From positions 1 to 40,451 of IMG/VR virus record IMGVR_UViG_3300034068_000207: 40,451 nt of DNA. One strand, given 5' to 3'. Below, one piece after another: positions 1-40,451 of the stretch (its first letter is position 1; each line of letters opens with the position of its first letter). The translations under genes and the position numbers were made by a program. The notes under the pieces were generated by a model that worked only from the letters and a program-made list of their open reading frames with translations, made no database searches and had not been told where the DNA came from. This stretch comes from a virus.

Positions 1-818
1 AATGCTTCTGCGTCTGGTTCATCCCAGTTGCCCATGTCCTGCCAAACACCTTTAGCGGTCGGGACACTGGTGGTTGGTATGCGATGGGTGGCAAGATCAG
101 CGAACTCTCGATGCCCATGAGCGTTAGACAGGATCGTTGGGATACCCGCTGAGACAGCCTGCAACGGCATGAGACCAAACCCTTCACCACGGGACACCGA
201 CACAAACCCATCCATAGAACGAACCAAATCACGTTCCTGTTCAACAGTTAACCATTCACGATGAATTACCACATTTGGGTAATCCAAGTTCTTTGGCGCA
301 GACAGGTGAGGTGGCACAATCTTGATATGCAGTTCAGCGTCAGGTAGCTGCAACTTGTTAAACACTTCCAGTACTACATCTAAGCCTTTGCGATACCACT
401 CTGAACCGCCGCACATGATCCGGAACTTGCCATCAGGTTTATCTTCAGATGGACACCAAACTGTACGGTCAACGCCCAACGGGATCATATGAACATTGTC
501 GTGGAACTGGGAGAACAAATCATAGTTGTGCATAGAAGGCACAATGATCGTTTCGATCAGCGGGATGTATTCGTAAAACTGTGGTGGCAACCAGTTTGTT
601 TCCCACATGGTTAACACCGATACACGCTGGTCATCAAACCAACCTGCAATCAGGTTAGGTCGTAACGCAAACATCACAGTTTCGGCGCGATCATCAAGTG
701 TTACCTTTTCAGATAACGCTGTCTTCAACCCTTGCACCATTTTCCCGTAACCGATATGCGGGATGTTTACACCTTCAACACTTAAAAGTCGGGAAGTATC
801 CCTGATTCTGCCTGCCAT
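1..818 (-). CDS. Glycosyltransferase, GT4-like (left copy, 3' end cut by the window)
   Basis: This is the 5' part (about 272 codons) of the gene present in full at 39215-40339. The ATG at 816-818 matches the start of the complete copy. The protein is a GT-B-fold glycosyltransferase with the family-4 signature around Glu in SRGEGFGLMPLQAVSAG. It differs from the right copy by one residue (Pro for Ala near residue 20) and otherwise by silent changes. It is truncated only because the window starts inside it. It is the last gene of the left part of the leftward structural unit and overlaps the upstream 94-aa gene by 37 bp. Confidence 0.85.
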   Translation of the reverse strand, partial: MAGRIRDTSRLLSVEGVNIPHIGYGKMVQGLKTALSEKVTLDDRAETVMFALRPNLIAGWFDDQRVSVLTMWETNWLPPQFYEYIPLIETIIVPSMHNYDLFSQFHDNVHMIPLGVDRTVWCPSEDKPDGKFRIMCGGSEWYRKGLDVVLEVFNKLQLPDAELHIKIVPPHLSAPKNLDYPNVVIHREWLTVEQERDLVRSMDGFVSVSRGEGFGLMPLQAVSAGIPTILSNAHGHREFADLATHRIPTTSVPTAKGVWQDMGNWDEPDAEA

Positions 819-930
819 TTTTCTGTTGCTCTCGATTCCACGTTTGCGGCACCATCAATTTTTCTTGGTTGGATACCGTCTTGACGCAACCGTTTATATG
901 CGTCTAAGTCCTTTTCTAGCACACGATCCT
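1..930. repeat. Left copy of 930-bp imperfect terminal direct repeat
   Basis: This segment matches 39522-40451 over its whole length without gaps. I count 18 single-base differences. It carries most of the glycosyltransferase gene and the end of the neighbouring 94-aa gene. Self-overlap of contig ends is what a circular or circularly permuted phage genome gives after assembly, so the non-redundant genome is about 39,521 bp. The differences are almost all silent, so they look like natural strain variation and not read errors. Confidence 0.95.
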
Positions 931-1066
931 TCTGTGCGATGGTTGCTGACCGTGAAGAACCTGTACGGGTAGGCATAAGTTCTGCGCTGAATCCGACTGC
1001 TGACACCTTGCATCCGAAACAACCCTCAACATCCAGGTCAGGATGTGTCTCTTGATGTTTGATCAC
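782..1066 (-). CDS. Small conserved phage protein with CxxC motif (94 aa)
   Basis: The function is not known to me. The start is a GTG at 1064-1066 that overlaps the upstream stop as GTGA, which indicates translational coupling. The N-terminal part contains EGCFGCK, a CxxC pair that could bind metal. The middle is basic and the C-terminal half (VLEKDLDAYKRLRQDGIQP, IDGAANVESRA) is helical. Two differences from the partial second copy at 40303-40451 are silent, so the reading frame is under selection. Its place between virion genes and the glycosyltransferase suggests a late role, for example as a small assembly factor; this is inference. Confidence 0.75.
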   Translation of the reverse strand: MIKHQETHPDLDVEGCFGCKVSAVGFSAELMPTRTGSSRSATIAQKDRVLEKDLDAYKRLRQDGIQPRKIDGAANVESRATEKWQAESGILPDF

Positions 1067-5522: not shown

Positions 5523-7582
5523 TACGCCACCTTTCCAAATGCGCGAGCCAAAGTCAAACCAATATCCGTAGCCTGATCATTAGCCTGCTTCGTATACTGC
5601 CAACCAAACGAAGGATCAGACTTGACCCTCTTAGTCCAATCCGTCAAAGACAACTGACCCGACTCCTGAGAACCAAACGCCTGCAAATATGGCCCATCAA
5701 ACATGTTGATCTGATCTGGTGTCTGTTCCAACAACTGGGCTGCATACTCTCGATACGTTGAACCAATATCTTCCAAAGTTAAACCAGCATCAAACTGCGA
5801 AGCCAAATGTGGCATAGCACCCTTCCACTTAGATTGCAACTGCTGACGCAAACCCTCCTCAGTCAACACAAGACCAGAACCAGCCATAGGAGTACTAGTT
5901 AAAATAGATTTAATTTGATCATCAGAAATCTTTGTGTTCCATGCTTTACCCAATTGACGGATACGATCAGCGTCAGCACCTTCCAACGCTCGACCAGCCA
6001 AAGCAGGTTGAGCGGCCTGTTGCTTAAACGTTCCTGAATAAACTGCCTGCTTCAAACCTAAACCAGTAACACCTTTACGTGCTGCGTCTGTAGCCAATGC
6101 GGTCAAAGTGGCATCGTCAAAACCAATGTCGCCGTAAGCATCAGCAATTTCTAGTTTCTTTCTATTGACTAAAGACTGTTTGTTTGCTGTGGTTTGTTGG
6201 TCAAAATCGCGAGCGTTTGTTTCAGTTGTTGTGTAATAAACTGTCTGCTTCAGCGCAAGGGCATATGCCTGTCTGCCTTCATCAGTTGTTAAACCTTGAT
6301 ATTTGCCATTCGGCTTAGAAGCCTCGACCATTAAAGCAATCAGGTCAGGACCAAAGTGGGTGGTTGCGTTATCGCTCAACCATTCGTTTGTGTAGGAAGG
6401 AAATGTTTGACGAAGAATATCTTTCCAAGCGTCAGGAGAAACAGCCTTAGGTCTTACTGGTGGGGTCACTCCTCCACCTGTCCCTCCTCCACCGCCACCG
6501 CCACCGCCACCACCCGTGGGTGTAGTTGTGACAGTTGGGATAACCAAACCGCCACGAACACCTGGAGGACCAGCAGTAGTTGCTTTAGTTGGTGCTGTAA
6601 CCGTAGTTGCTTTAAGGTTGTTTATATTACTTGTAGCCGTTACTGGAGCGGGAACAACATTCTGTGTCCCACCCTCTTTGGCAGCCATAGCACTAGTTGG
6701 TGCGCCAACTTGAACATTGACAAGAGCAGCTGCTTCCTGTGGGGTTGCTGTGGACACCTTCTTTGAACGATCCAAAAACCTTGACAACATGTTGCTTTGT
6801 TCTTGGTCACGCAAACGGGTGTACGAAGTAGGTCGACCGAATTTATCTGTTGCTTCAACCTGTTCGGTACTAAATTCAACTTCAGCCAATTTGTTTGCCT
6901 CAGAGATTGCAGCACCAACATTTTTTTCTACGTCAGTCACAGGAACAAAATTTGTCAAAGTTCCTAGATCACCATATTTGCCTAAAACGGTTGGCAGGTT
7001 CTTTGCTCGAAGTTGTTTGACTTTATCTGTAATGGTTGGGATAACTTGTTTCCAAGCAGCAGCCAAAGCCAACTGTTGTTCTGATCCAGTTAACTGTGAT
7101 TCAGCCGTACCGGATGTAGTGAACTTTGTTTTAAGTTCATCAACACGGGCAACAGCCTGATCGTATGCCTGAAGTTCAGGATCGGTAGTGTTTGTTGCGT
7201 TTTTTAACAACTGTTGAGTATCAAAAACTTCTTGCGCTGTCATCAGTTCTGTATCTGCACCAAAGAGTTGCAAACGTTTCGCAGAATACTTTGTTTCCCA
7301 ATCTTTACGCAACTTCAATTTCTGTGGGATAGTTTCGTTGATCAGTTTGAACGCTTGTGTTTTAGCCGAATCCAACTGAGTCTGAGACTTATATTGCACA
7401 AGTTTTGTGTTACCGAAACCAAGTTTTGTGTCGTCGTACAGTTTCTTTGTGTCGGCAAGTTCTTGTCTGATTTCTTCAACCGTCTGAAAAATTGGTGGGG
7501 CAGGAACTTGGTTCTCTGGGGACAACAAAGATTCGCTTGCCTCACCACCACCAAAACTAAGGTCTTGTGGTCGCATAGACAT
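5522..7582 (-). CDS. Large virion protein with polyglycine hinge (686 aa)
   Basis: The protein has three visible parts. Residues about 30-290 are helical and Lys/Gln-rich with coiled-coil character (VEEIRQELADTKKLYDD). Residues about 300-380 are a low-complexity Ala/Thr/Val/Pro linker with eleven consecutive glycines. Residues about 385-686 are a second helical domain. This two-domain layout joined by a long flexible hinge suits a protein packed in the head or portal vestibule and delivered with the DNA. No lysozyme or polymerase motif was seen. It overlaps the upstream gene by one base (TAATG). Confidence 0.75.
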   Translation of the reverse strand: MSMRPQDLSFGGGEASESLLSPENQVPAPPIFQTVEEIRQELADTKKLYDDTKLGFGNTKLVQYKSQTQLDSAKTQAFKLINETIPQKLKLRKDWETKYSAKRLQLFGADTELMTAQEVFDTQQLLKNATNTTDPELQAYDQAVARVDELKTKFTTSGTAESQLTGSEQQLALAAAWKQVIPTITDKVKQLRAKNLPTVLGKYGDLGTLTNFVPVTDVEKNVGAAISEANKLAEVEFSTEQVEATDKFGRPTSYTRLRDQEQSNMLSRFLDRSKKVSTATPQEAAALVNVQVGAPTSAMAAKEGGTQNVVPAPVTATSNINNLKATTVTAPTKATTAGPPGVRGGLVIPTVTTTPTGGGGGGGGGGGTGGGVTPPVRPKAVSPDAWKDILRQTFPSYTNEWLSDNATTHFGPDLIALMVEASKPNGKYQGLTTDEGRQAYALALKQTVYYTTTETNARDFDQQTTANKQSLVNRKKLEIADAYGDIGFDDATLTALATDAARKGVTGLGLKQAVYSGTFKQQAAQPALAGRALEGADADRIRQLGKAWNTKISDDQIKSILTSTPMAGSGLVLTEEGLRQQLQSKWKGAMPHLASQFDAGLTLEDIGSTYREYAAQLLEQTPDQINMFDGPYLQAFGSQESGQLSLTDWTKRVKSDPSFGWQYTKQANDQATDIGLTLARAFGKVA
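6482..6517. repeat. GGT/GGC microsatellite encoding the polyglycine hinge
   Basis: A run of glycine codons (read leftward) encodes eleven Gly in a row, then Thr and three more Gly. Trinucleotide repeats of this kind can change length by slippage without breaking the frame, so the hinge of the 686-aa protein may vary between related phages. Boundaries are approximate. Confidence 0.7.
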
Positions 7583-8370
7583 TAGTTACCACCCAATATC
7601 TGTGAGGTGAAATCGGCAACACGGGCAAAACCATAGGCTTGCGCTTCATCAGGGTTTGCTTGTCCAGGAGCCATCTCAACAAGTGTAGATGTACTTGCCG
7701 TACCAGCAGCTTCACCTCGTTGAACTTGCAGCACCAAAGCGTTTAATTCTTGTTTTGTTAACGCACGACCTAATGTACCCAAAGCCTCACGTTGCAAATC
7801 TTTAGCAAGATCAAGTTTTTGGCTTACACGCCGACCCGAACCTGAAGTGGACACAGGGTTGTCTTGTCGAATGAAGTTTAATGAAGTTCTCCAGTCATAA
7901 CCGTACTGGTTTGATGATTTTAGAATGTCGCTCATAACACGCAGATCTTGTTGACCCAAGCCGGTCGTTGTAGGTTTGACACCCTTCTCGTATAAGCCTC
8001 GCTCATACATTTCTTTCAACAAAGCAGCGCGTTGAGTGCTATCCAGTTTGGTTAGTTCTGTGTAAGTTTCACGAACAATGTCATATGGCGCACGGGCAAT
8101 ACGCCCTTTTTCGTCAACAAGGTTTTGTCCTGCATACAAATATCCTGTGGTCGTACGGCCAACACGCGGGTTATCTGCGCTTCCTTCCAAACGGGTACTG
8201 GTCTGTGGAAGAAAGGCTCCTGTTTCTGGTAATGCTTCTGCTGGCAAAACGTTGGTTGTTACAGGTCGAGGGAAAGGTGTCGCACCTTTCGCTCCCGCTG
8301 TTGTAGTCAAAGGCGCAGCACCGACCCCTAGTGGATCGGCAGGATTAACGGGATCAGGTGTCATGCTCAT
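7582..8370 (-). CDS. Virion-associated protein of unknown function (262 aa)
   Basis: The first about 75 residues are Pro/Thr/Ala-rich and probably disordered (DPVNPADPLGVGAAPLTT). From about residue 75 the protein is helical, with LVDEKGRIARAPYDIV, LTKLDSTQRAALLKEMYERG and a C-terminal LGRALTKQELNALVLQVQRGEA. The disordered start and helical body resemble its two larger neighbours, so it is probably part of the same internal protein set. Its start overlaps the 1517-aa gene by four bases. No catalytic motif was recognised. Confidence 0.7.
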   Translation of the reverse strand: MSMTPDPVNPADPLGVGAAPLTTTAGAKGATPFPRPVTTNVLPAEALPETGAFLPQTSTRLEGSADNPRVGRTTTGYLYAGQNLVDEKGRIARAPYDIVRETYTELTKLDSTQRAALLKEMYERGLYEKGVKPTTTGLGQQDLRVMSDILKSSNQYGYDWRTSLNFIRQDNPVSTSGSGRRVSQKLDLAKDLQREALGTLGRALTKQELNALVLQVQRGEAAGTASTSTLVEMAPGQANPDEAQAYGFARVADFTSQILGGN

Positions 8371-11300
8371 TGGTCAACTTCCGATTGTAGTTCACGTTCC
8401 CAAATCCTTGCGAAATCAGGTGTCTGCTGGATCAATGTTAGCCCAATGGAAGACAAGTAATCACGGAGAGGTTGTGCAGCTTTGGCTGTACCTAATCCTG
8501 ACGGTTGACCGCCACCAGCAACATAGTTGCTGATTGCTTGATCACGATACTGCAAATAGGTTGCCAACGATTTAGCCACATCGTTATCCGCAAGTTTTGT
8601 GTTCTGTACGGCAGAACGCATCTTCTCAATGTTTCTCTCAAATTCACCAACTGTGAATATAGGGACAACAGGGAAACCTGGGTACTTTTCGTTTAACTTT
8701 GTACGCACGTTTTTTAGCCATGCCCTTTGTTCTTCGTTCGGGTATGAACCAACTTGGGCTTTGTAAGCACGGTATTGTGCTGAACCAATACGATATTGGG
8801 CTTGCTCAATGACTTCATTGGCTGTTAAACGCTTACGCGCACCTGAACGGATTTGTCGTTCCCATGTTTGGAAATCAAAATCTGATCCACCAGGAGCAAA
8901 ATATCCTGCGATGGTTGGGTACTGCTGAACCAAATCTTCGTTGCCGCGTTCCCAATCACCGAACTCTTTAGATGCTTCAAGACCGCCCTGTGTTGCTTTG
9001 CTTTTAGACGACAAGTACAGCATGGCATCGTCACCGTAAATGCGAATAAACTCCGATACGGCTGTGTCATAGTTGTTTGTTTGCAACTTGTAAAACTCTT
9101 TGATAAGAGCCGACGCATAAATGTCGCCCTCTTTGGAATCAACAATAAATTCGTTAGATGGTGAAGCAGGTCCGATGAACTGCCCTAATGCTCTCATTGA
9201 GGCAAGGATTCTTGCTTTACCTTTTGCGTCTTCAAGCAACTGTGCTTTACCTTGTTCGGTGCTTGAATCATAATCACCTGATGCAGACAAGGCTCGGACA
9301 ACATCCACATAGGTGTTGGCATAAATCGTTTGCATTTGACCTTCGTTATCAAACAACGCTGATTTAAGTTTTCTTGCCCACGAAGGCACAATCGAAGCAC
9401 TAGTCCCACGACCGTATGGCAACAGAATGCTTACAACACCATCAAAACTAGGGGTGTCAGGAATGATCGCTGAAGCAGCAATCTGACCCACAGGGCCGAT
9501 AGCCGGAATGACGTTTAGACCGATAGATACACGCTTTACTGGTGCTTGCAGTGGGGCGTTTACTCCTGTCAACAGTTTTGCAATTGTTCCTGACATTGGG
9601 AAGTTGAATGAGTATTCGCCTGATGTTGGATCCTTGTAGAAGAACCCTTGTCCGTCTGCGTCAGGGTCAGCGTTAGCCATACCGTTAAAAATTTGTTGTG
9701 CTCGACGAATACGAGTTGGGTCTTCAATAGCGTATTTTGCGTATGTGCCTAATACTTCGCGCCATGCTGCACCGAACGGTACGACGATACGCAAAATGTC
9801 TTCCAAGTTGTTTTTGGATGTGGCATCAAACAAGGAAGTTTTAACCGAATCTAAAGCCATCAAACTTGCATAGTCATCTAGGTCACGGATTGTTCCTGTG
9901 CCGTTGGCTGTTGCAGCAAGTTCCTGAATTTGTTTCCAGTTGTCTTTGCTTCCAACATATTCTGACGGTTTCATTTTTAACCGTTTGGATGCACTCGTAA
10001 TGTCGGACAGCAAGTTTTGTGCTTCGGAAGCAGACAGCGAACCAGCATTACGGCTTATTTGCTCATAGTAAAACTGTCGATACACAGGAGCGCGTTCAAG
10101 TTTATTGACAAATCGCTTCTCGTACAGTTCGTGGAAGAACAGGTTTGTCATGCGATCTAATGCTCTGCCAGCAGGGTTTGATGAATCTTGGACAATGGAC
10201 TGTTCGGCAAGTTTTACTTTCTTAGGCAAAATTCCACTGCCTGCTTTGCTTTCAATAAGGCGCGTAAGTTCAGCCCTTCCCAAAGCAAGTTCTTCAGGGT
10301 CAATTCCAGCACCAGTAAATTGGTTTGTTGAAACACGTTGCAATTGCCATCTTGGGCCTTGTGGTGTGTCAACTACATCTGTAACAACAGCAAGTATTTT
10401 CTCTTTACCTTTGCCACTTAGATCAACAAGCGATCCCCTGCCAGGGCTAGATGGGCCGTCAAGGATTTGGCGTGGGTCAATGTCGTCAGCAAACTCTGCA
10501 AAGGTTTCATTTAACGGTACGCGACGGTATCCAACAGCAAACATCAATTCTTTGTCGCCACCCGTTTTTAGATCAACTCGACCTTTGGCAAGTCGTTCAA
10601 TCCATTCACGGAGAACGTCGTCGTCAATGTTGTTAATCTTGCTTTTGAAAGACCAACCATCTTCTTTGATGATGTTAATTCCGTTGTCAAGATATTTTTC
10701 TAAATCTTTTAACGCTTCTTTGCCTTTAGGGTTGGTTCGCAGATACTTGATTAGGTCGTCTGTTGAGATTCCTTTAGCAACACCGTTCTCAATAGAGTCT
10801 TTAGAAATTTGAATTAACTCATCTCGCAAACCTTTAAGCCACAACTCAGGTGATTCTGATTGAGAAACAATCTTCCATGATCCGTTACGCACAGCACGAA
10901 CCTGAGAAGGAACAATGTCGTCTAACCCTCGACCAAGTTTAAGTTTGGTTGCAGCCTCGTAATAATCAATGGTGTCATCAAACTGTTCTGCCGAATCTTT
11001 GATGAAAGCATCAAAGCGTCGACCAACGATTCTTTCGCCACCCTTTTCCCCCATGACCCAACCGATGTATCGCAACGGGTGATTAAAGAAACCTTCTTTG
11101 CCAATCGTGGCAATACGAACTTGCGCGTCAAACATGTTTCGCATGATGTAACCACCAGTAGCAAGGGTTAGTGGTTTCCAAACTTTGTTTTGAAGGTACT
11201 CTGACATCGCTATAGCAGCTCGCGGATCGCCATCTGCTCTAGCAATCATCGTTTTCAAATATGGGTTTCCTGTCACCCGTCGCACAACACGGACATCAGG

Positions 11301-12920
11301 CAACACATGAGTGCGGTCTAATAGTTCCACAACGGAACCTGGACCATGCAAACGTAACTGTGCTATTTCTGTTGGGGAAAGATTGTCAAATTGCGCTGGA
11401 TCAATTTTGCCTGCCGAAATTAATGCTTGGACAAATCCTGCGTCTGTAGCGTCACCGGCTTCATCAACAAAATATGCTTTGGTTTCATCAACGCTTGCTT
11501 TGGTTTTTAGAAAGATGTCTTTAATAAGATTGTCTGGCACACCTTCGTCTGCCATTAACACTTTGACTGTGGACTCAAATGCGTCACGCGCAGCGTCAAC
11601 ACTTGCCTTACTAGTGTCACTGTAAGCATCAAAGACTTGGCGCATGAGCACCCTGCCTTCGTCGCTTTCCGTAAAGTTGCCCTTAATGGTGTTCAAATAG
11701 TTTCGGTAGTTTTTAATTGCTTTAACACGATCCGATCCCGAACCATGAACAACAAAGTTTTCGGGCATCTCCGTCAATAACCGTGACTGCCTAAACGAGT
11801 TAACACCAGGGATTCGTTCCTTGTACTGAGTACCCCATTTTGCGCCACGAATATCTCGAATATCTTGTGGCAAAGCACGGGCAGAAATTTCATCCAACAC
11901 AGCGGTTTGTTCACCGATAATGCCCAACACTTGATCTGTAGTTTTAGCGTTAGCCAACTTTAACGCTGTCTCGGTATCAATCTTCCCGTCAAATACATCA
12001 AACAAAATCTTTACAGGATCATCCGTTTTCTCGTCAGCGAGAAGCGAAACAAGTCGTTTCGCCCGTGTATCCGTAGTAAAAAACTTCATAAACTTTGAAG
12101 TATCCCAAGCCGCTTTTTCTGTGTCCGTCAAACCAGCCAAAGCCTTATCTGCAACAAGAGCAATCTTCTTAGCGGCTTCTATCTCGTCAACAGTTTGAAT
12201 ACCTTTGATCAACGCACGTTCAGCTTTCAAACCTGCAACAGCTTTACCACCAATAAAGGTAGGGTCAGCAACAACGTTTACTGCCGCATCCAAAAAGCCT
12301 GACAGAATTGAATACTGTTTAGAACCAGGAGTAAAGAACACATCGGCGGCACCACGGCCAACAGTCCATGCAGAACCGTTAATGGTGCCACGAACCTGTC
12401 GAGCGCGTTCAGCCTGCTTCTCAGCAGCTTTACCACCAATAAACCAGCCTTCACCGGCTTCATCAGAGTCAGAAAACATTGTTCCCAAACTTGTGGACTT
12501 AAACCATCCATCAAAACCACCAGGATCGTTCGGTGACGCAATTTGTGAAGCGATGTTTTGTGCAATTTCTGGTGTTGCGTTCAAAGCAGCAAACGACCAT
12601 CGAGCAGTTTCTTTTACATTGTCAAAAACGTTGCGTTCCCACCACGATTTGTTACGTGGTTTAGCAGGATCTAACTGTGCAGGAAGATTTCGTGCTTGTT
12701 GAGTGGAAGCAAGTTCAACCGCTTCAGGTGACGCACCTGCTTTAGCCAAAGACAACACCTGTCCAGGTGTCATCCACGGGTTAGCCCTATAGATTTCTCC
12801 AACTTTTTGTGCTACAACAGGGTTTGCTTTTGTTTTGTTTTGTTCGGCAGATTTGTTTTGGTTGTAGATCAGTTCATTGACACGTTGTTCTGATACGCCA
12901 TCAATCCACGACGAAGGCAT
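8367..12920 (-). CDS. Giant virion protein, probable internal/ejection protein (1517 aa)
   Basis: This is the largest gene and covers about 11% of the genome. The N-terminal 60 residues resemble those of its neighbours (VNELIYNQNKSAEQNK). The rest is mostly helical, with moderately hydrophobic stretches near residues 1110-1180 (VSIGLNVIPAIGPVGQIAAS) that could contact membrane. In short-tailed phages, very long proteins encoded near the portal usually sit inside the head and form a conduit across the host envelope during DNA entry. I see no transglycosylase, protease or polymerase signature. A tape-measure role is unlikely because no tail-tube or chaperone genes accompany it. Confidence 0.75.
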   Translation of the reverse strand: MPSSWIDGVSEQRVNELIYNQNKSAEQNKTKANPVVAQKVGEIYRANPWMTPGQVLSLAKAGASPEAVELASTQQARNLPAQLDPAKPRNKSWWERNVFDNVKETARWSFAALNATPEIAQNIASQIASPNDPGGFDGWFKSTSLGTMFSDSDEAGEGWFIGGKAAEKQAERARQVRGTINGSAWTVGRGAADVFFTPGSKQYSILSGFLDAAVNVVADPTFIGGKAVAGLKAERALIKGIQTVDEIEAAKKIALVADKALAGLTDTEKAAWDTSKFMKFFTTDTRAKRLVSLLADEKTDDPVKILFDVFDGKIDTETALKLANAKTTDQVLGIIGEQTAVLDEISARALPQDIRDIRGAKWGTQYKERIPGVNSFRQSRLLTEMPENFVVHGSGSDRVKAIKNYRNYLNTIKGNFTESDEGRVLMRQVFDAYSDTSKASVDAARDAFESTVKVLMADEGVPDNLIKDIFLKTKASVDETKAYFVDEAGDATDAGFVQALISAGKIDPAQFDNLSPTEIAQLRLHGPGSVVELLDRTHVLPDVRVVRRVTGNPYLKTMIARADGDPRAAIAMSEYLQNKVWKPLTLATGGYIMRNMFDAQVRIATIGKEGFFNHPLRYIGWVMGEKGGERIVGRRFDAFIKDSAEQFDDTIDYYEAATKLKLGRGLDDIVPSQVRAVRNGSWKIVSQSESPELWLKGLRDELIQISKDSIENGVAKGISTDDLIKYLRTNPKGKEALKDLEKYLDNGINIIKEDGWSFKSKINNIDDDVLREWIERLAKGRVDLKTGGDKELMFAVGYRRVPLNETFAEFADDIDPRQILDGPSSPGRGSLVDLSGKGKEKILAVVTDVVDTPQGPRWQLQRVSTNQFTGAGIDPEELALGRAELTRLIESKAGSGILPKKVKLAEQSIVQDSSNPAGRALDRMTNLFFHELYEKRFVNKLERAPVYRQFYYEQISRNAGSLSASEAQNLLSDITSASKRLKMKPSEYVGSKDNWKQIQELAATANGTGTIRDLDDYASLMALDSVKTSLFDATSKNNLEDILRIVVPFGAAWREVLGTYAKYAIEDPTRIRRAQQIFNGMANADPDADGQGFFYKDPTSGEYSFNFPMSGTIAKLLTGVNAPLQAPVKRVSIGLNVIPAIGPVGQIAASAIIPDTPSFDGVVSILLPYGRGTSASIVPSWARKLKSALFDNEGQMQTIYANTYVDVVRALSASGDYDSSTEQGKAQLLEDAKGKARILASMRALGQFIGPASPSNEFIVDSKEGDIYASALIKEFYKLQTNNYDTAVSEFIRIYGDDAMLYLSSKSKATQGGLEASKEFGDWERGNEDLVQQYPTIAGYFAPGGSDFDFQTWERQIRSGARKRLTANEVIEQAQYRIGSAQYRAYKAQVGSYPNEEQRAWLKNVRTKLNEKYPGFPVVPIFTVGEFERNIEKMRSAVQNTKLADNDVAKSLATYLQYRDQAISNYVAGGGQPSGLGTAKAAQPLRDYLSSIGLTLIQQTPDFARIWERELQSEVDQ

Positions 12921-15095: not shown

Positions 15096-17072
15096 CTAAA
15101 TCCAAGAAGGTCGCCACTGTTTCGGTGGGGTAATACCTTGTCGCAGTTTTGGTGCATGTAGTTCAGCAAACCAGTGTGCCATCACAAGGTCAGTACCCGC
15201 CTTTTTGTCTCTAGTCCACGAAGACATCTCCTCAATGAACGCCAAAGTCTTCCAGTTCTCGCGCATCGTAGGCAAACGAACCTGACCAGAACGCCACAAG
15301 TTAGGTAGCAACGCTTCGACACCCAAGTTTTCGTCTAGTTTGTTGCGGCTAGTGGTGTGAGGTATCACGTTTACGGTATGTAATGCCTGCCATTTGCGAA
15401 CAAAGTCGTGTGCCAACAAGAATCGTTGTGCAGCGTTCACTTCCACAATCCAGTGGGAGATTGGGTAGCCGTACTCAAACGACCTGTTCTGCCAATCTTC
15501 CATGATCCCTGAATAGGTGCGCCCCGAAATGTCGTATCCCAACAATCCTTCAGCAGTAAGTTTTACGCGCTCACAATCAATCAGGAATCGCAGGTTGGTT
15601 TCAGGTTGATAGATCCACCATTGGATAGCCCAAAACATTGTTGGTGACGGGTCAACTGAAGCAATCGAAATGAGTGGTGGCTGCAAGTTTTGTGGAATAT
15701 GTCCTGGTCGACGATCATTGTCAATACACCCTGGATACATCACACCGTCAGCACCCACACCGCCGGTAGCCCACACCCGTTCAATGAGGTAGTTGCCTTC
15801 AGCTTGATCTTCTTGCTGATACACCACAGCAAACTTTGCAGGGTTAGAGTGCTTCACATACGACAGGTCTTTCCATGAAAGACGGTACGGGTCTAGCAGT
15901 GGGCCTTCAGGCCATGCTGGTGAACTGTTACGTTTAGACGCTTTACCTGTGTCTAGTTCTTCGTAATACGCTTTGTAGATGAGGTGGTGGTACTTGTGTT
16001 TTTTGAGGGGTTCTTTGTCTTCGGAGATGTCCGTGGTGTCTGACCCGTCGTAGTTGTCTTCGAAATCTTCGTACGTGATTTTGGAGAGGCAGTGGGCGTA
16101 GAGGTCAAGTGGTCCGAGTCTTTGTCCGACAACTGCGAGAAGGCCGCCTGGGTCGACGCGAGCTTCTGCCATTGAGTCCCATCGTTCAATAAGTTTATCT
16201 CGTGCCGCACTTTCTTTAGCATTTTCCGGACTCGCAACGTCGTCAAATAAGCAGAGATCCGCACGGTGGCCAATGAACTCAGACTCGATACCATAAGCAC
16301 TAACAGTAGGTTCCTTGTTGTCCAGTCCACCCATGTCCTCCTGTTCGACAATAAATTCTTCGGCTCGCCACAGGCTACCACTTGTTGAAGGCTTAAACCT
16401 ACCAAAGTCTATGGCAAGACATGCTTCGGCTTTGATGGCTAATCCTTTGTCTATCAGGATCGGGTCAGGGTCTAACGGGAACTGGCGTTCTAAGGTTTCA
16501 CGGATACGGCGCGAATACATTTTTGCCAGTGCTTGTGACACGGAGCCGATCATCACACGAATTTTGCGGTTCTTTACTATCTGCCACACAGCCACATCGT
16601 GGAACAACGTGGATTTGCCTGCACCTGGGGGACAGTTCAACACCACAAACTCTTTATCGTCGTTGTAAAGCCATGCTTCGATCTGGTATGCGGCATCAAC
16701 CTGCCACGGGGAAGGCACACGACCCAAATAGCGTCTACGGAAATAATCAAAATCGGTTAACGCCCGTTGCGCTTCAGGTTTTAGACGGTCATACGGAATA
16801 ACCGGTGGCAAATCGGACACATCCATAACTTTTTGCCATGCGTCAGCTTGTACGCCACCTTCTTTTTTGCGTACTTTAGCCCCATCAAGGTTCGCTAACT
16901 CCAACTCAGCCTTTACTTTACGCTTCTTGGAGTCCCATTTTTGTGCGGTGTTGATATGCACACCAGCGATCTTCGCTGCATCTTTGATTGACATACCTGA
17001 TGCCCGTGCTTGCCAAAACCTTGCAACATCTTGTGGCGGTATTTGTCGTCGCCCACTACGGCCTGCTGTCAT
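15096..17072 (-). CDS. Terminase large subunit with N-terminal helix-turn-helix domain (658 aa)
   Basis: This is the DNA-packaging motor: an ATPase that threads DNA into the capsid plus a nuclease that cuts concatemers. The Walker A motif CPPGAGKST is at residues 147-155, and the Walker B motif with catalytic acid, LCLFDD, is near 273-278. The RNase-H-like nuclease domain starts around IASVDPSPT. Unusually, residues about 10-50 form a helix-turn-helix (SGMSIKDAAKIAGVHINTAQKW) like that of small terminase subunits. No separate small subunit was found, so DNA recognition may be fused to the motor. It overlaps the upstream methyltransferase gene by 17 bp. Confidence 0.93.
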   Translation of the reverse strand: MTAGRSGRRQIPPQDVARFWQARASGMSIKDAAKIAGVHINTAQKWDSKKRKVKAELELANLDGAKVRKKEGGVQADAWQKVMDVSDLPPVIPYDRLKPEAQRALTDFDYFRRRYLGRVPSPWQVDAAYQIEAWLYNDDKEFVVLNCPPGAGKSTLFHDVAVWQIVKNRKIRVMIGSVSQALAKMYSRRIRETLERQFPLDPDPILIDKGLAIKAEACLAIDFGRFKPSTSGSLWRAEEFIVEQEDMGGLDNKEPTVSAYGIESEFIGHRADLCLFDDVASPENAKESAARDKLIERWDSMAEARVDPGGLLAVVGQRLGPLDLYAHCLSKITYEDFEDNYDGSDTTDISEDKEPLKKHKYHHLIYKAYYEELDTGKASKRNSSPAWPEGPLLDPYRLSWKDLSYVKHSNPAKFAVVYQQEDQAEGNYLIERVWATGGVGADGVMYPGCIDNDRRPGHIPQNLQPPLISIASVDPSPTMFWAIQWWIYQPETNLRFLIDCERVKLTAEGLLGYDISGRTYSGIMEDWQNRSFEYGYPISHWIVEVNAAQRFLLAHDFVRKWQALHTVNVIPHTTSRNKLDENLGVEALLPNLWRSGQVRLPTMRENWKTLAFIEEMSSWTRDKKAGTDLVMAHWFAELHAPKLRQGITPPKQWRPSWI

Positions 17073-18297
17073 ACACCGAGTTTACACGTGCTTTGGCTAT
17101 CTCAATATATTCTGCCGATTGCTCGACACCAATGAAGTTGAAGCCTTCCAACACAGCTGCCTTGCCTGTCGAACCTGAACCTGTGAACGGGTCAAGAATT
17201 GTCCCGTTTGGTGGGGTGACCAGTCTGCACAAGTATCGCATTAGGTCTGTTGGTTTCACCGTTGGGTGATGGTTGGCTTGCTTTGCAACACCTTTCTCAT
17301 CAAATGTTCCCATCCCTGTTGTAGTTCGTTCGTCAGGGCGTTTCTCAGCGAATCCGTCTAAGCCTTCGTTGCGATCTTTCTTGCTGGCTTTCGCACAATA
17401 AAAGAACCGTGCAGCAGACTGGTTTGGTTTGTCAGACGGGAATAGTTCTAACACTTCGTCTGAACCGTCATGAATAAAGTTCGCAGGGAAACGACCCACA
17501 TGACTTTGATTTTCCAAACGTGTTGCAGGTCTTGGATTTTGACCAAATGAAAGTTTGTCAATCCCAGTTGCTTCTTTACTCATAGCACCAACATCACGCA
17601 GATTTGGCATTGTCCCACCACCAAGAACTTCGTCACCCACTCTGCATCCGTCAATGTTGATACCGCCAACACCATGCGTCAAAACATTGTTGGCAACAGT
17701 TCCATCTAACGGCTTACGAGCCAACACAATCGGTTCGTGCGCTGGTTTAAGTGCCGTTCCCCAACCATTCCACTCTTTAGCCTCATCTGTAGTCGGTTCA
17801 AGTTTTCCCAACCGTGTCGCACTGGCTGTTTCGTCATAGTTTGTATCACGCTGACCATGAGTGAACTGTTGTTTAGCAATACCCCAATCACCACGATCAA
17901 CTTGCTCACCAGCCAAATTCTTGAATGCTGTTTTATTGGCCGAACCCGTCGTGAGTAATCCTTCAATAGATTTGCTTATGTTCAGCGACTTCGGAAACCC
18001 CGACCCGTACACCCACATAATCTGATCCCTGATCTGAAACCCTGCATCCTCGATAGCACACGCCATACGGTGATATGTCCGTGAACCACCGAACGACAAC
18101 AAGTGTCCACCAGGTTTCAACACACGCAAACATTCCTGCCACACCGTCACATCATAAGCAACACCAGACGCATCCCAAGACTTACCCATAAAGCCAAGCT
18201 CATACGGTGGATCAGTCACAATGCTGTCAATCGAATTATCAGCCAACGTTCGCAACACGTCACGACAATCACCAAGCAACAATTCAAATTCCCTCAT
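17056..18297 (-). CDS. DNA adenine-N6 / cytosine-N4 methyltransferase, DPPY type (413 aa)
   Basis: The enzyme transfers a methyl group from S-adenosylmethionine to an exocyclic amino group in DNA. The catalytic motif TDPPY is at residues 34-38, early in the protein. The SAM-binding motif DPFTGSGSTGKAA with EGFNFIGVEQ lies near the C-terminus, which is the beta-class order. About 230 residues lie between them, including the target-recognition region. The canonical start LLGDCRDVL supports the ATG at 18297. No clear ribosome site precedes it and the predicted transcript start is only a few bases upstream, so it may be translated leaderless. The likely role is protection of phage DNA or a timing signal for packaging. 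Confidence 0.92.
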   Translation of the reverse strand: MREFELLLGDCRDVLRTLADNSIDSIVTDPPYELGFMGKSWDASGVAYDVTVWQECLRVLKPGGHLLSFGGSRTYHRMACAIEDAGFQIRDQIMWVYGSGFPKSLNISKSIEGLLTTGSANKTAFKNLAGEQVDRGDWGIAKQQFTHGQRDTNYDETASATRLGKLEPTTDEAKEWNGWGTALKPAHEPIVLARKPLDGTVANNVLTHGVGGINIDGCRVGDEVLGGGTMPNLRDVGAMSKEATGIDKLSFGQNPRPATRLENQSHVGRFPANFIHDGSDEVLELFPSDKPNQSAARFFYCAKASKKDRNEGLDGFAEKRPDERTTTGMGTFDEKGVAKQANHHPTVKPTDLMRYLCRLVTPPNGTILDPFTGSGSTGKAAVLEGFNFIGVEQSAEYIEIAKARVNSVYDSRP

Positions 18298-22183: not shown

Positions 22184-22297
22184 GCTGATCATCTCGATTG
22201 GTTTATGTTTGTTATCACATACAGGTGGCTGAACAAGACGAATGTAGGTGGTAATCGTTTGTTTGCATTGTGGGCATGACCAGGTTTGTTTGTTCAT
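22175..22297 (-). CDS. 40-aa zinc-finger-like miniprotein
   Basis: The ATG at 22297 overlaps the stop of the cytosine methyltransferase (TGATG). The product reads W-S-C-P-Q-C-K near its start, then YIRLVQPPVCDNKH, giving CxxC plus a later Cys and His that could bind one zinc. Small proteins of this shape are common in actinobacterial phages, though their function is unknown. It is the last gene of the leftward unit; its stop codon lies in the right arm of the opposing terminator. Confidence 0.6.
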   Translation of the reverse strand: MNKQTWSCPQCKQTITTYIRLVQPPVCDNKHKPIEMISKK

Positions 22298-24111
22298 CAG
22301 ATTGCCAAGATATGTTTTGCGATCCATTGGGCTACTGGTGATGCGACTCCGTTGCCTGCCTGCTTATACCGGTGTGAGTCGGCTTGCTCTGTGCCGTCGG
22401 CTTTGTATCTAGTGTGATCATCAGGCCATCCCATCAACCGTTCACATTCAAGTGGCATGAGTCGACGCACCGCCATTGTTGGTTCTAGTACACCTGTGGA
22501 TTGTTTTGTTCCTGCACGGAGCGCGTGATGCACCTCGTTGGTGCTGTCGTTGTATTCATCGTAGGCTACAGCGTGACGATCACCGCCTGTAAGCGTATTC
22601 ATTGGGTCACTTGCACCCCCAATTCCTAAACCATTTCCCTTACCATCTTGTTTGTCACCGCGCTTTCCGGAGTGCCGTGTTGCTTGGTCATGTATCGGAT
22701 AGGCAACGCTCGGTGATTGCTGTGATGCTTTAAGTGTTGGCGAAACGTTCTCGGTGACATTGGCGTTGCTGCCAAACTGTGTATCAAACGCTAAGGTCGG
22801 TTCAGCAACCATCGGTGTATTGTTGCCACCGGTACCCATCATCGCTGATAGCGAGTGCATAACTTTTTCTTGGATTCGTGCTTCTCCACTCATGTGTGCC
22901 TGAAAGAAGATGGGTTCCTCAACTATGGCATGTCCATCTCTTATGGATTCGTGATTGGTTGCTGTTACCCTGGCTTGTAGTGAGCCAACAATTTCTTTGA
23001 CAGGGTTATTTTTCATTTGTACTGGTTCAACGATGGCTGTTGTGGCACGGGTATCACCAACATCAAACGAGTTTAGTGTCGGGTTCACTTGGCCAGGTAT
23101 CCAAGTTTCTGAATCGTCAGAGGTTTGCGCACGACTTGACTTCACATACGGTTCGGTCACTAATTTATTTTCAGCAACATACTGGTTTCCTACACCTTTG
23201 TAATCACGTGCAGCAAGCGCACCGACGACATCTTGTTCAACTACAGCCTGAAACCGTTGCTTATCTGGCATACGTTGCTCATTGGATGTTGTTGTCAATG
23301 CTTCGGCTGTGTCTTTACCATCCCACCATGCGCCATCATCGACGACCATGTTGTAATATTCAGAACCACTCGGTCCACCTGAACCTTTGCTCCATTTAGA
23401 AGTCACACTTGTTCTAAGGATGTCCCCGTCGGGGGTTGTTCCGGCAGCCCATTGACCATCTGTTCCAACGCTCGTTGCAGTCTCAACGGCAGCACTTTTC
23501 CTCGCCGGTTTGCCCTTCGCAAGATTCCCTGGCAAGCTTTTGGCGACAGGTAGTAACGGGGTTGGACATCGGCTGGCAAGGACAGGATCAAAGATAGCGA
23601 TGACGAACACGCGCCTTCGTCGTTGGGGTATTCCGAAGTATTGTGCGTCCAGCACACTCCATTCGATTGCCACCGCCCCTGCTTCAGCCATTTCGTTGAG
23701 GATGATCCCGAAGTCAGCCCCTCCGTTGGAGTTAAGTGCGCCGACGACGTTCTCCCAAATAGAGATTCTTGGATATTGTCCATTAGTTTCCTCCTGTAGT
23801 TCTTTGATAATTCGGATACCTTCGTGAAATAAACTTGACCTACCACCTTCTAACCCTGCTCGTTTGCCTGCAACGGACAGGTCTTGGCATGGTGAACCCC
23901 ATGCGACAACATCAACGACAGGTGCATGAGCAAGGATATGCTTGCCTGTCAGCGTAGATACATCATCCCATTTTGGGACATCAGGCCAATGCTTATACAG
24001 AATGCTGTTGGCATGTTTGTCCCATTCACATTGAAACACTGTTTCCATACCGGCGTTCTCTAAACCCATGTCGAACCCACCAACACCGCTAAACAAACTT
24101 AAAACTTTCAT
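22297..24111 (-). CDS. DNA cytosine-C5 methyltransferase with repeat-filled recognition region (604 aa)
   Basis: The enzyme adds a methyl group to carbon 5 of cytosine in DNA. Visible motifs are I (LFSGVGGFDMGLE, 6-18), IV with catalytic Cys75 (GSPCQDLSVAG), VI (WENVVGA, 119-125), VIII (QRRRRVFVIA, 163-172), IX-like (RRLMPLECERLMGWPDD, 549-565) and X (YKQAGNGVASPVA, 582-594). The start at 24111 follows GGAGGAAACAGG and overlaps the upstream stop. Between motifs VIII and IX are about 370 residues, where a target-recognition domain is usually 100-200. They contain about eight degenerate units ending in V.[EY]P or similar. The likely role is evasion of host restriction. Confidence 0.93.
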   Translation of the reverse strand: MKVLSLFSGVGGFDMGLENAGMETVFQCEWDKHANSILYKHWPDVPKWDDVSTLTGKHILAHAPVVDVVAWGSPCQDLSVAGKRAGLEGGRSSLFHEGIRIIKELQEETNGQYPRISIWENVVGALNSNGGADFGIILNEMAEAGAVAIEWSVLDAQYFGIPQRRRRVFVIAIFDPVLASRCPTPLLPVAKSLPGNLAKGKPARKSAAVETATSVGTDGQWAAGTTPDGDILRTSVTSKWSKGSGGPSGSEYYNMVVDDGAWWDGKDTAEALTTTSNEQRMPDKQRFQAVVEQDVVGALAARDYKGVGNQYVAENKLVTEPYVKSSRAQTSDDSETWIPGQVNPTLNSFDVGDTRATTAIVEPVQMKNNPVKEIVGSLQARVTATNHESIRDGHAIVEEPIFFQAHMSGEARIQEKVMHSLSAMMGTGGNNTPMVAEPTLAFDTQFGSNANVTENVSPTLKASQQSPSVAYPIHDQATRHSGKRGDKQDGKGNGLGIGGASDPMNTLTGGDRHAVAYDEYNDSTNEVHHALRAGTKQSTGVLEPTMAVRRLMPLECERLMGWPDDHTRYKADGTEQADSHRYKQAGNGVASPVAQWIAKHILAI

Positions 24112-24353
24112 CCTGTTTCCTCCAATGTCATAGTGAACCAATCATCCCAAATTTCGCAGGGATGTAAACCTAATTTAATTGCGTAACGATCTGCTTCGTA
24201 AGCATTAAATCGTATTTGTCTTTCAATCCATTTGTATACGGTTGATCGACCGATGCCTAAAATTTCTGCAACATTTGTGTTTGTTGTATCTGGGCCAAAG
24301 GATTTGATAATTTCTGTTGCCAAATATTTGCGATCATATTGTGGGTCTTTCAT
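24108..24353 (-). CDS. Helix-turn-helix protein (81 aa)
   Basis: Residues about 22-45 form a clear helix-turn-helix (NVAEILGIGRSTVYKWIERQ), followed by YEADRYAIKLGLHPCEIW. That second segment is the pattern of actinobacterial and phage regulators or excision-like proteins that sit on specific DNA. It lies between a replication-like small gene and the methyltransferase, overlapping the latter by four bases, and may regulate this block. A repressor role cannot be shown. Confidence 0.78.
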   Translation of the reverse strand: MKDPQYDRKYLATEIIKSFGPDTTNTNVAEILGIGRSTVYKWIERQIRFNAYEADRYAIKLGLHPCEIWDDWFTMTLEETG

Positions 24354-33307: not shown

Positions 33308-34153
33308 CTATCCGATTGGGTATCTAATAATAACAATGCCTGAACCACCAGCACCACCGTTTTGTGTGCCATTACCAACTGCACCACCGCCACCACCACC
33401 AGTGTTTACCGTGCCAGCGACACCAGCATTTCCGCCACCGCCCGCACCACCAAGACCGTCAGCAGTGCCTGTTCGAGTGCCGCCACCGCCACCGCCTGCG
33501 TATGTAACAGATGTGCCAGTTATTGAAGATGCAAAACCAGCACCGCCATTACCACCCAAATCTGTAGCCGCATTAATGTCTTGACCTGCCGCAGATGCAC
33601 CACCACCACCAGCCGATGCTTCGTTACCCGAACCACCGTTTGTTATATTGCCTCCCCTAAATCCCTGCCCAGATGTACCCAAACCACCTGATTGACTACC
33701 ACCTCCCGAAAAGCCATTAACTCCTCCACCCGAACCACCATCCTTGTCATCGGTATTACTTCCGCCTCTACCGCCACCAGTAGAAGTAACAGAACTAAAC
33801 ACGCTGTTGCTTCCTTTAGTGTCAACAGCACCGCCACCACCGACAGTGACCGTGTATGAAGTTCCAGCAGTCAAAGACTGTGTGCCAGTTAGCAAACCTC
33901 CTGCACCACCACCGCCACCACCAGCAGTAAGAGGGTTATTTCCTCCGCCACCACCTGCGACAACCAAATACTCAACAGAACCGAGAGAAGCGGATGGAGA
34001 AACACTCAACGTTCCAGTAGATGTAAAAGAATGAACCTTATAGAACACTCCGTTAGCAGAGGCATACGATTCCGTGCCACCCGAAAGAACAGATTGCAAA
34101 GGATATCTAACAGAATCTTTTACATACTTGCTGACCCGTGTTCTGCTACGCAT
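33308..34153 (-). CDS. Glycine-rich adhesin-like tail protein, copy B (281 aa)
   Basis: The protein begins with a short basic head, then HSFTSTGTLSV and VEYLVVAGGGGG, and continues as a Gly-rich body with many GGGG runs, ending in GGSGIVIIRYP. The body probably forms polyglycine helices, as in phage receptor-binding adhesins. It is a tandem paralogue of the upstream gene, with which it shares TSGQGF, SSITGTSV and the closing GGSGIVI motif. It overlaps that gene by one base (TAATG). Confidence 0.8.
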   Translation of the reverse strand: MRSRTRVSKYVKDSVRYPLQSVLSGGTESYASANGVFYKVHSFTSTGTLSVSPSASLGSVEYLVVAGGGGGNNPLTAGGGGGGAGGLLTGTQSLTAGTSYTVTVGGGGAVDTKGSNSVFSSVTSTGGGRGGSNTDDKDGGSGGGVNGFSGGGSQSGGLGTSGQGFRGGNITNGGSGNEASAGGGGASAAGQDINAATDLGGNGGAGFASSITGTSVTYAGGGGGGTRTGTADGLGGAGGGGNAGVAGTVNTGGGGGGAVGNGTQNGGAGGSGIVIIRYPIG

Positions 34154-35025
34154 TATGCCACCGTCACAGTCGTTGAACCAGTCGAAGTAAACGAATGAAT
34201 CGTGTACCCACCCGAAGAAGTAATTGTTCCACCACTCACAGCGACACCTGCCTGTGTTGCGTCAGAAGTGAGGTAACGGAAAATGACGATACCTGAACCA
34301 CCAGCACCTGGAGTATGAGCAGTGGTATCGGAAGCACCACCACCACCGCCACCCGTATTGGCAACGCCGCTTTGTGCATTGTTGACTCCGTTGTCCCCGC
34401 CCTTGCCGCCACCTCCAAGACCTCCAGCACCACCCAAAAATACTCCCGCAACCGAGCCGCTACCACCACCACCAGCACGAGCAACAGAAGTGCCAGTAAT
34501 ACTGGAAGCCAAACCATCGCCACCTTCTGAACCCGTTTCTAAAGCCGCCCCAACATTTTGACCTATTTCACTAGCACCACCACCACCGCCACCAATACGA
34601 CCACCAGAGGTGCCACCACCAAAACCCTGCCCACTGGTTCCAACACCACCCGTGCCAGGAGTACTTGCGGAACCAGCACCACCGCCACCCGAACCACCAA
34701 CGGAACCATTACCACCGTTGGCAAGTCCACCCTTACCGCCACCAGTAGAAGTAACAGAACCAAATACGCTGTTAGAACCAGATGTGTTTGCCGCACCGCC
34801 AGCACCAACCGTCACAGTTGTTGAACCAACAGGCAACAAAGTAATTGAAGTTAAATATCCGCCTGCACCACCACCGCCACCACTACCTCCACTGTCTGCA
34901 CCGCCACCGCCGCCACCGCCACCAGCGACAACAAGATACTCAACATCAACACCCTGCAAAGAAGGATTCAACCAATACTTAACAGAAGTAGAAACCCGTG
35001 ACCGAGTATCGTAACGAAGCACCAT
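34153..35025 (-). CDS. Glycine-rich adhesin-like tail protein, copy A (290 aa)
   Basis: This protein has VEYLVVAGGGGGG near its start, a Gly-rich body with SNSVFGSVTSTGGGKGG, TSGQGFGGG and SSITGTSVARAGGGG, and GGSGIVIFRYL near residue 245. The last residues contain HSFTSTGSTTVTV. In copy B that same HSFTSTG module lies at the N-terminus, before VEYLVVAG. It is probably a tip adhesin that contacts the host surface, though this is inferred from composition. Confidence 0.8.
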   Translation of the reverse strand: MVLRYDTRSRVSTSVKYWLNPSLQGVDVEYLVVAGGGGGGGGADSGGSGGGGGAGGYLTSITLLPVGSTTVTVGAGGAANTSGSNSVFGSVTSTGGGKGGLANGGNGSVGGSGGGGAGSASTPGTGGVGTSGQGFGGGTSGGRIGGGGGGASEIGQNVGAALETGSEGGDGLASSITGTSVARAGGGGSGSVAGVFLGGAGGLGGGGKGGDNGVNNAQSGVANTGGGGGGASDTTAHTPGAGGSGIVIFRYLTSDATQAGVAVSGGTITSSGGYTIHSFTSTGSTTVTVA

Positions 35026-38648: not shown

Positions 38649-38762
38649 TTACTTCTTTTTCTTGGCCTTCATCATCGGTTTGTCCATCTTCTTGGCCATT
38701 TTCTTTGCGTCAGCCTTACCTTTGGCGGTGTAAGGGAATTTCATTTTTCCAACTTTAGGCAT
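38649..38762 (-). CDS. 37-aa lysine-rich miniprotein
   Basis: The ATG at 38762 gives a 37-residue, strongly basic product (KFPYTAKGKADAKKMAKKMD, then a Lys/Met-rich end). Its stop is directly before the 294-aa start. Similar basic miniproteins occur in pairs or triplets near tail genes in aquatic phages and may bind DNA or be packaged; here that is inference. Confidence 0.6.
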   Translation of the reverse strand: MPKVGKMKFPYTAKGKADAKKMAKKMDKPMMKAKKKK

Positions 38763-38803
38763 AATCGTTCCTTTCAAGGTTTAGAAAAACAGATTACCAC
38801 ACA

Positions 38804-39064
38804 TCAACAATCCCATTTGCGTAACGCCAAAGCCTTCCGAGTCGGCTTTCCCTTGCTGTCCTTCAACGGACCTGGCATCCCGCCCATACGCGCACAAAAC
38901 GATTTACGTCGAGCAGCCGCTTTAGGTGACTTCGCTGCTTGCTTCGCTGACACAGGTGGTTTCAGATTCATACCTTGCGCTTTGGCAGATGCACGACCTT
39001 TAGCGTTCAAACCACCAGCAGGATTCTTGCCTTCTTTGCGTTGCCAAGCAGCAGTCTTAGCCAC
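38804..39064 (-). CDS. Small basic virion-associated protein, DUF6321-like (86 aa)
   Basis: The GTG start overlaps the upstream stop. The protein is Lys/Ala/Arg-rich with AAWQRKEGKNPAGGLNAKGR, KSFCARMGGM and a C-terminal LRKWDC. I recognise this layout as that of a widespread phage family of unknown function (DUF6321), usually beside structural genes. It is probably packaged or nucleic-acid binding. Confidence 0.78.
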   Translation of the reverse strand: MAKTAAWQRKEGKNPAGGLNAKGRASAKAQGMNLKPPVSAKQAAKSPKAAARRKSFCARMGGMPGPLKDSKGKPTRKALALRKWDC

Positions 39065-39218
39065 GCTTCTTTGCGGCCTTCATGTTGTCAATCAAATTAG
39101 GGTACGGGCGACCAGCAGCTTTAGCCGAAGCCTTCGCAGCAGCCTTCTTCTTTGGGGACAACTTCTTAGATTTCTTTTTAGGGTTTGGTGTATCCCAAAC
39201 TGCTTTAGGTTTCATCAT
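39057..39218 (-). CDS. 53-aa lysine-rich miniprotein
   Basis: The ATG at 39218 overlaps the glycosyltransferase stop (ATGA); a second ATG follows immediately. The product has PKAVWDTPNPKKKSKKLSPK, then KASAKAAGRPYPNLIDNMKA, a phage-type basic miniprotein. It overlaps the DUF6321-like gene by 8 bp. With the two following genes it forms a row of three basic miniproteins. Confidence 0.65.
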   Translation of the reverse strand: MMKPKAVWDTPNPKKKSKKLSPKKKAAAKASAKAAGRPYPNLIDNMKAAKKRG

Positions 39219-40339
39219 GCCAATACTCCTGCGTTTAATAGGACATCTCTGACATTCAACACTACACGATGCTTCATTCCTGGTAACAGTTCCACACGAT
39301 GTTGACCGATGGTGGCTTGCACCCGTTTAGATACCTCAATTTCGCATGTAGGTTCAAACGGTTTCCACACCCCAGTAGACCTGTTGATGGTTGGCTGAAC
39401 GATCTGTAGCACTTGTTCGGCTGCTGTGTCCCAGTTAAACGCTGCTGTTTGTGGGGCTGTCAGGAACGCCTGACGACGGTACTTGTCACGTTTGTTGTAT
39501 AAGTCTTTGATGGCTTCTGCTAATGCTTCTGCGTCTGGTTCATCCCAGTTGCCCATGTCCTGCCAAACACCTTTAGCGGTCGGGACACTGGTGGTTGGTA
39601 TGCGATGGGTGGCAAGATCAGCGAACTCTCGATGCCCATGAGCGTTAGACAGGATCGTTGGGATACCCGCTGAGACAGCCTGCAACGGCATGAGACCGAA
39701 CCCTTCACCACGGGACACCGACACAAACCCATCCATAGAACGAACCAAATCACGTTCCTGTTCAACAGTTAACCATTCACGATGAATTACCACATTTGGG
39801 TAATCCAAGTTCTTTGGCGCAGACAGGTGAGGTGGCACAATCTTGATGTGCAGTTCAGCGTCAGGTAGCTGCAACTTGTTGAACACTTCCAGTACTACAT
39901 CTAAGCCTTTGCGATACCACTCTGAACCGCCGCACATGATCCGGAACTTGCCATCAGGTTTATCTTCAGATGGACACCAAACTGTACGGTCAACACCCAA
40001 CGGGATCATATGAACATTGTCGTGGAACTGTGAGAACAAATCATAGTTGTGCATAGATGGCACAATGATCGTTTCTATCAGCGGGATGTATTCGTAAAAC
40101 TGTGGTGGCAACCAGTTTGTTTCCCACATGGTTAACACCGACACACGCTGGTCATCAAACCACCCTGCAATCAAGTTAGGTCGCAAAGCAAACATCACAG
40201 TTTCGGCGCGATCATCAAGTGTTACCTTTTCCGATAACGCTGTCTTCAATCCTTGCACCATTTTCCCGTAACCAATATGCGCGATGTTTACACCTTCAAC
40301 ACTTAAAAGTCGGGAAGTATCCCTGATTCTGCCTGCCAT
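39215..40339 (-). CDS. Glycosyltransferase, GT4-like, complete copy (374 aa)
   Basis: This is a GT-B-fold transferase. The N-terminal acceptor domain starts after AHIGYGKMVQGLK; FRIMCGGSEWYRKGLDVVL begins the donor half. VSRGEGFGLMPLQAVSAGIP carries the E-x7-E-like sugar-nucleotide site of family 4. The last about 60 residues (KPFEPTCEIEVSKRVQATIG) are an extra beta-rich tail. Phage enzymes of this kind glycosylate capsid or tail proteins, phage DNA or host surface; placement among tail genes favours a virion or surface target. The left copy at 1-818 is the strain-variant repeat. Confidence 0.87.
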   Translation of the reverse strand: MAGRIRDTSRLLSVEGVNIAHIGYGKMVQGLKTALSEKVTLDDRAETVMFALRPNLIAGWFDDQRVSVLTMWETNWLPPQFYEYIPLIETIIVPSMHNYDLFSQFHDNVHMIPLGVDRTVWCPSEDKPDGKFRIMCGGSEWYRKGLDVVLEVFNKLQLPDAELHIKIVPPHLSAPKNLDYPNVVIHREWLTVEQERDLVRSMDGFVSVSRGEGFGLMPLQAVSAGIPTILSNAHGHREFADLATHRIPTTSVPTAKGVWQDMGNWDEPDAEALAEAIKDLYNKRDKYRRQAFLTAPQTAAFNWDTAAEQVLQIVQPTINRSTGVWKPFEPTCEIEVSKRVQATIGQHRVELLPGMKHRVVLNVRDVLLNAGVLA

Positions 40340-40451
40340 TTTTCTGTTGCTCTCGATTCCACGTTTGCAGCACCATCAATTTTTCTTGGTTGGATACCGT
40401 CTTGACGCAACCGTTTGTATGCGTCTAAGTCCTTTTCTAGCACACGATCCT
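39522..40451. repeat. Right copy of 930-bp imperfect terminal direct repeat
   Basis: This is the second copy of bases 1-930, offset by exactly 39,521. Differences are spread from position 177 onward of the repeat and are densest at 474-762. The one amino-acid change seen is Pro (left copy, base 761) versus Ala (right copy, base 40282) in the glycosyltransferase. This copy contains the complete 5' end of that gene. Confidence 0.95.
40303..40451 (-). CDS. 94-aa CxxC protein, second copy (3' part only)
   Basis: This is the C-terminal part of the gene at 782-1066, cut by the window end. It matches with two silent differences. It overlaps the glycosyltransferase start by 37 bp, as in the left copy. 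Confidence 0.7.
   Translation of the reverse strand, partial: DRVLEKDLDAYKRLRQDGIQPRKIDGAANVESRATEKWQAESGILPDF

Follow-up and report, generated by a model that had tools for sequence, protein, structure and literature searches.

Microdiversity is known to fragment assemblies of phage genomes (PMC6487183), and the work describing COBRA traces contig breaks to variation within populations and notes that a contig may extend into closely related sequences at both of its ends (PMC10914622). The IMG/VR record IMGVR_UViG_3300034068_000207, whose whole stretch of 40,451 nucleotides is referred to here as the window, is very probably a product of this kind: a circularly mapping phage genome assembled from a sample with more than one strain, and running past its own start on the other haplotype.

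The first 930 bases of the window (1–930) align without gaps to the last 930 (39522–40451) at an offset of 39,521 and with 98.1% identity, collinearly and in the same orientation. Exactly 18 mismatches separate the left-end copy (haplotype A) from the right-end copy (haplotype B), all of them substitutions, at positions 177, 327, 360, 474, 510, 537, 555, 621, 642, 653, 663, 666, 711, 729, 753, 761, 848 and 896 of the left copy. Bases 1–176 do not differ between the copies, and another 34 bases are common to both after the last difference, up to the end of the overlap. Our recount of the overlap and of its differences is identical to that given earlier in the sequence-only reading. Comparison of the window with itself found no further long repeat joining the two end regions.

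The right-hand copy belongs to a complete glycosyltransferase gene of 374 aa (39215–40339, minus strand; GT4-like, Pfam Glyco_trans_1_4, PHROG 2170), which spans the junction of the closed circle. Its profile matches exceed the curated cut-offs (42.7 bits against PF13692, cut-off 27; 41.4 bits against PF00534, cut-off 26.4), on which grounds the product is predicted to be a GT4-type glycosyltransferase. The truncated second reading at positions 3–818 (minus strand) is the same gene and not a second one: haplotype A holds its first 272 codons, cut by the contig end, together with the adjoining part of a 94-aa gene (782–1066, minus strand; PHROG 24600), which lies directly upstream of the glycosyltransferase and is doubly covered only to position 930. 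Downstream of the glycosyltransferase, the DUF6321 gene (38804–39064, minus strand) served as synteny marker on the far side of the junction. The missing 3' part of the left glycosyltransferase copy is exactly the sequence found to the left of the right copy, and intact 374-aa and 94-aa genes result from either joint, 39521 to 1 or 40451 to 931.

The same locus in related phages agrees with such a closure. A search of IMG/VR using the glycosyltransferase recovered 50 related loci, and the gene is single-copy in every one of them. Both flanks follow the order predicted by the closed circle in 38 of these loci, with the 94-aa gene directly upstream and the DUF6321 gene or a 294-aa gene at most 3 kb downstream; in the remaining loci a contig end interrupts the order or a marker is lacking. 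Close relatives, including G001, G002, G003, G004, G005, G008 and others, are uninterrupted across the junction. These data thus support a circular map of about 39,521 bp that holds a single glycosyltransferase gene, and the proposal that the genome closes on itself is borne out by the intact genes and by the gene order of relatives, as is the warning that an annotation counting two glycosyltransferases would be wrong. A real duplication, leaving the genome with one glycosyltransferase copy at each end, had been offered as the alternative. The deposited contig does contain both copies; however, the left one is cut precisely where the sequence preceding the right one would continue it, and two copies were found in none of the 50 related loci and in none of the ten near-complete relatives, which makes a duplication very unlikely. 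We also note that ten of the 50 contigs terminate within the glycosyltransferase gene, against some six or seven expected by chance when roughly estimated from the lengths of gene and contigs. As the search query was that same gene, we do not regard it as a special hot spot of breakage.

The distribution of the differences bears on their origin. Sixteen of the 18 fall in the glycosyltransferase, where 15 are synonymous and one, at position 761 (codon 20), replaces Pro of copy A with Ala in copy B; the two in the 94-aa gene are both synonymous, so that 17 of 18 are silent, again in agreement with the earlier count. Under random placement over the 184 synonymous and 632 non-synonymous sites of the glycosyltransferase part, the probability of at least 15 synonymous changes among 16 is 2.6e-9. 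The two glycosyltransferase copies have a dS of 0.086 and a dN of 0.0016, with a dN/dS of 0.018. This strong silent bias reflects constraint on the glycosyltransferase protein, that is, ordinary purifying selection, and it is in this sense that the description of the two ends as selected holds. We read it as a property of the glycosyltransferase because the end mismatches of relatives are not always silent, the open frames examined in G013, G008 and G012 displaying conservative or single changes.

Could the differences have arisen as errors of sequencing or of the consensus near the contig ends? Low coverage is frequent in such positions, and the Ala codon of copy B at position 761 contrasts with Pro in all close relatives compared. 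The codon pattern, from which a read-error origin had already been judged unlikely, argues strongly against errors, as does the presence of both alleles of every site elsewhere: across all loci compared, they recur in other contigs at 18 of 18 sites. Errors as an explanation are extremely improbable, being refuted for the set of 18 sites as a whole, although an error is still conceivable at individual sites such as 761. In the twelve nearer contigs 14 of the 18 sites show both alleles, and at the other four (537, 653, 761 and 848) one allele is confined to more distant relatives. The alleles also occur in mosaic combinations: in close relatives of over 93% identity, all four combinations are observed for 32 of 153 site pairs, which means either recombination or recurrent mutation. 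Because both alleles recur elsewhere in such combinations, the 18 differences as a set are natural variation of the population.

The population itself is recombining or richly polymorphic. A RecE-like exonuclease and a single-strand annealing protein are among the phage's gene products, which makes recombination plausible. The sequence-only reading had assigned the two ends to two co-existing, selected lineages; two strain versions are indeed what we find, but two fixed lineages are not required, since the alleles at the 18 sites are mosaic. Strain mixture within one sample is seen in this phage group in dataset 3300042475, where contigs L023 and L048 both end within the glycosyltransferase and overlap by 402 bp with 96.8% identity.

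The same recombination genes and mosaic alleles would also suit a heterozygous terminal redundancy, in which the window would be a real headful-packaged virion molecule, excised from a concatemer where two co-infecting strains had recombined. Its 930-bp overlap amounts to 2.4% of the genome, a plausible size for headful redundancy, and molecules whose terminal redundancies carry different alleles have been described from crosses of T4. The ends of one molecule, however, would be invisible in a bulk-read assembly of a permuted population, and the simpler reading can do without one. We regard a heterozygous redundancy as highly improbable; if true, it would show in a natural population the kind of heterozygote familiar from T4 crosses. 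Our literature searches yielded no work dealing directly with terminal-redundancy heterozygotes.

Overlapping ends are common among the near-complete relatives. Seven of ten display an overlap of their own ends, of 113–235 bp and much shorter than that of the window, and in five it is imperfect: G013 (235 bp, 6 mismatches), G008 (192 bp, 1), G004 (155 bp, 2, in the major capsid protein region), G012 (131 bp, 1) and G010 (115 bp, 2). The overlaps of G007 (127 bp) and G011 (113 bp) have no mismatches; 127 is a usual largest k of SPAdes. They lie at several map positions other than that of the window, and such variety is expected of a circularly mapping genome broken wherever the assembler failed. 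This bears on yet another explanation, a linear genome of T7-like type that ends in a fixed direct terminal repeat with diverged copies. A repeat is present at both ends of a near-genome-length contig, and the single read-through in relatives is not decisive against it, short-read assemblies being known to collapse terminal repeats. Fixed terminal repeats are, however, copied from one another in each cycle and stay identical, whereas the copies here differ at 18 sites; the overlap both begins and stops within coding sequence; and the overlaps of relatives lie at other places on the map, as in the capsid region of G004, even if these may themselves be assembly products. A fixed terminal repeat accordingly retains very little probability.

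What could be the mechanism behind the imperfect overlap? Under strain mixing, the assembler would go once round a circle of some 39,521 bp and 930 bp beyond its start, with the glycosyltransferase region following strain A at one end and strain B at the other. The 18 differing sites kept the contig from being recognised as circular, and it was left as 'linear'. That both haplotypes were present together in the sequenced sample is an inference, as is the origin of the break in a branching of the assembly graph. A point against this account is the length of the overlap, 930 bp compared with at most 235 bp in the relatives. The breakpoints fit a simple k-mer bubble incompletely. In close relatives the base immediately to the left of the overlap varies, but so do about 11% of the sites in the region, and a bubble gains little from it; on the right, both copies share 34 bases beyond the last difference, and the close relatives compared show no polymorphism at position 931. 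That both breaks arose exactly from a simple k=127 bubble is therefore rejected, the left base being polymorphic and the right one not.

The window encodes the major capsid, portal and terminase proteins of a tailed phage. Because its nearest annotated phage matches are only about 25–27% identical (terminase and glycosyltransferase), the phage belongs to an uncultivated group, encountered in this analysis solely in IMG/VR. The DUF6321 gene, normally a neighbour of the glycosyltransferase, is missing from that place in G013 (IMGVR_UViG_3300027733_000095; 38671–38924) but occurs with 93% identity at another place in that genome, between the metallophosphoesterase and the 496-aa gene. Some other relatives lack it, or have it at a varying distance, and it may be a mobile single gene. 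Repeats of CCACCG type (plus strand; read from the minus strand, they would be rich in glycine) lie within positions 33308–35025 in neighbouring 281- and 290-aa genes, which have in common a 100-nt stretch of 75% identity, and a shorter run lies at 6456–6514 within a 686-aa gene. Two DNA methyltransferase genes (17056–18297 and 22297–24141) have different best PHROG matches (67 and 116). A 1517-aa protein (8367–12920) is without a PHROG match, and its best stretch is only 21–46% identical in near-complete relatives, against 65–100% for portal and terminase.

As a whole, the finding reflects what strain mixing ordinarily does to an assembly. For curation, it means that the record is best handled as a complete genome with a circular map of about 39,521 bp and one glycosyltransferase, rather than a linear fragment with two. 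More broadly, exact-match end tests overlook complete genomes in strain mixtures, as the frequency of imperfect overlaps among relatives illustrates (five of ten). The window resembles the circular phage contigs of IMG/VR, which are of near-genome length with the same sequence at both ends (exact over 127 bp in G007 and 113 bp in G011), but its overlap is imperfect and would be missed by such a test. It likewise resembles the strain-variant breaks of de Bruijn-graph viral assemblies, where the graph branches at variants and contigs end in related sequences (PMC10914622, PMC6487183); unlike in the usual breaks of this type, the overlap is long and both ends lie in one contig, which permits the two strain versions to be compared site by site.
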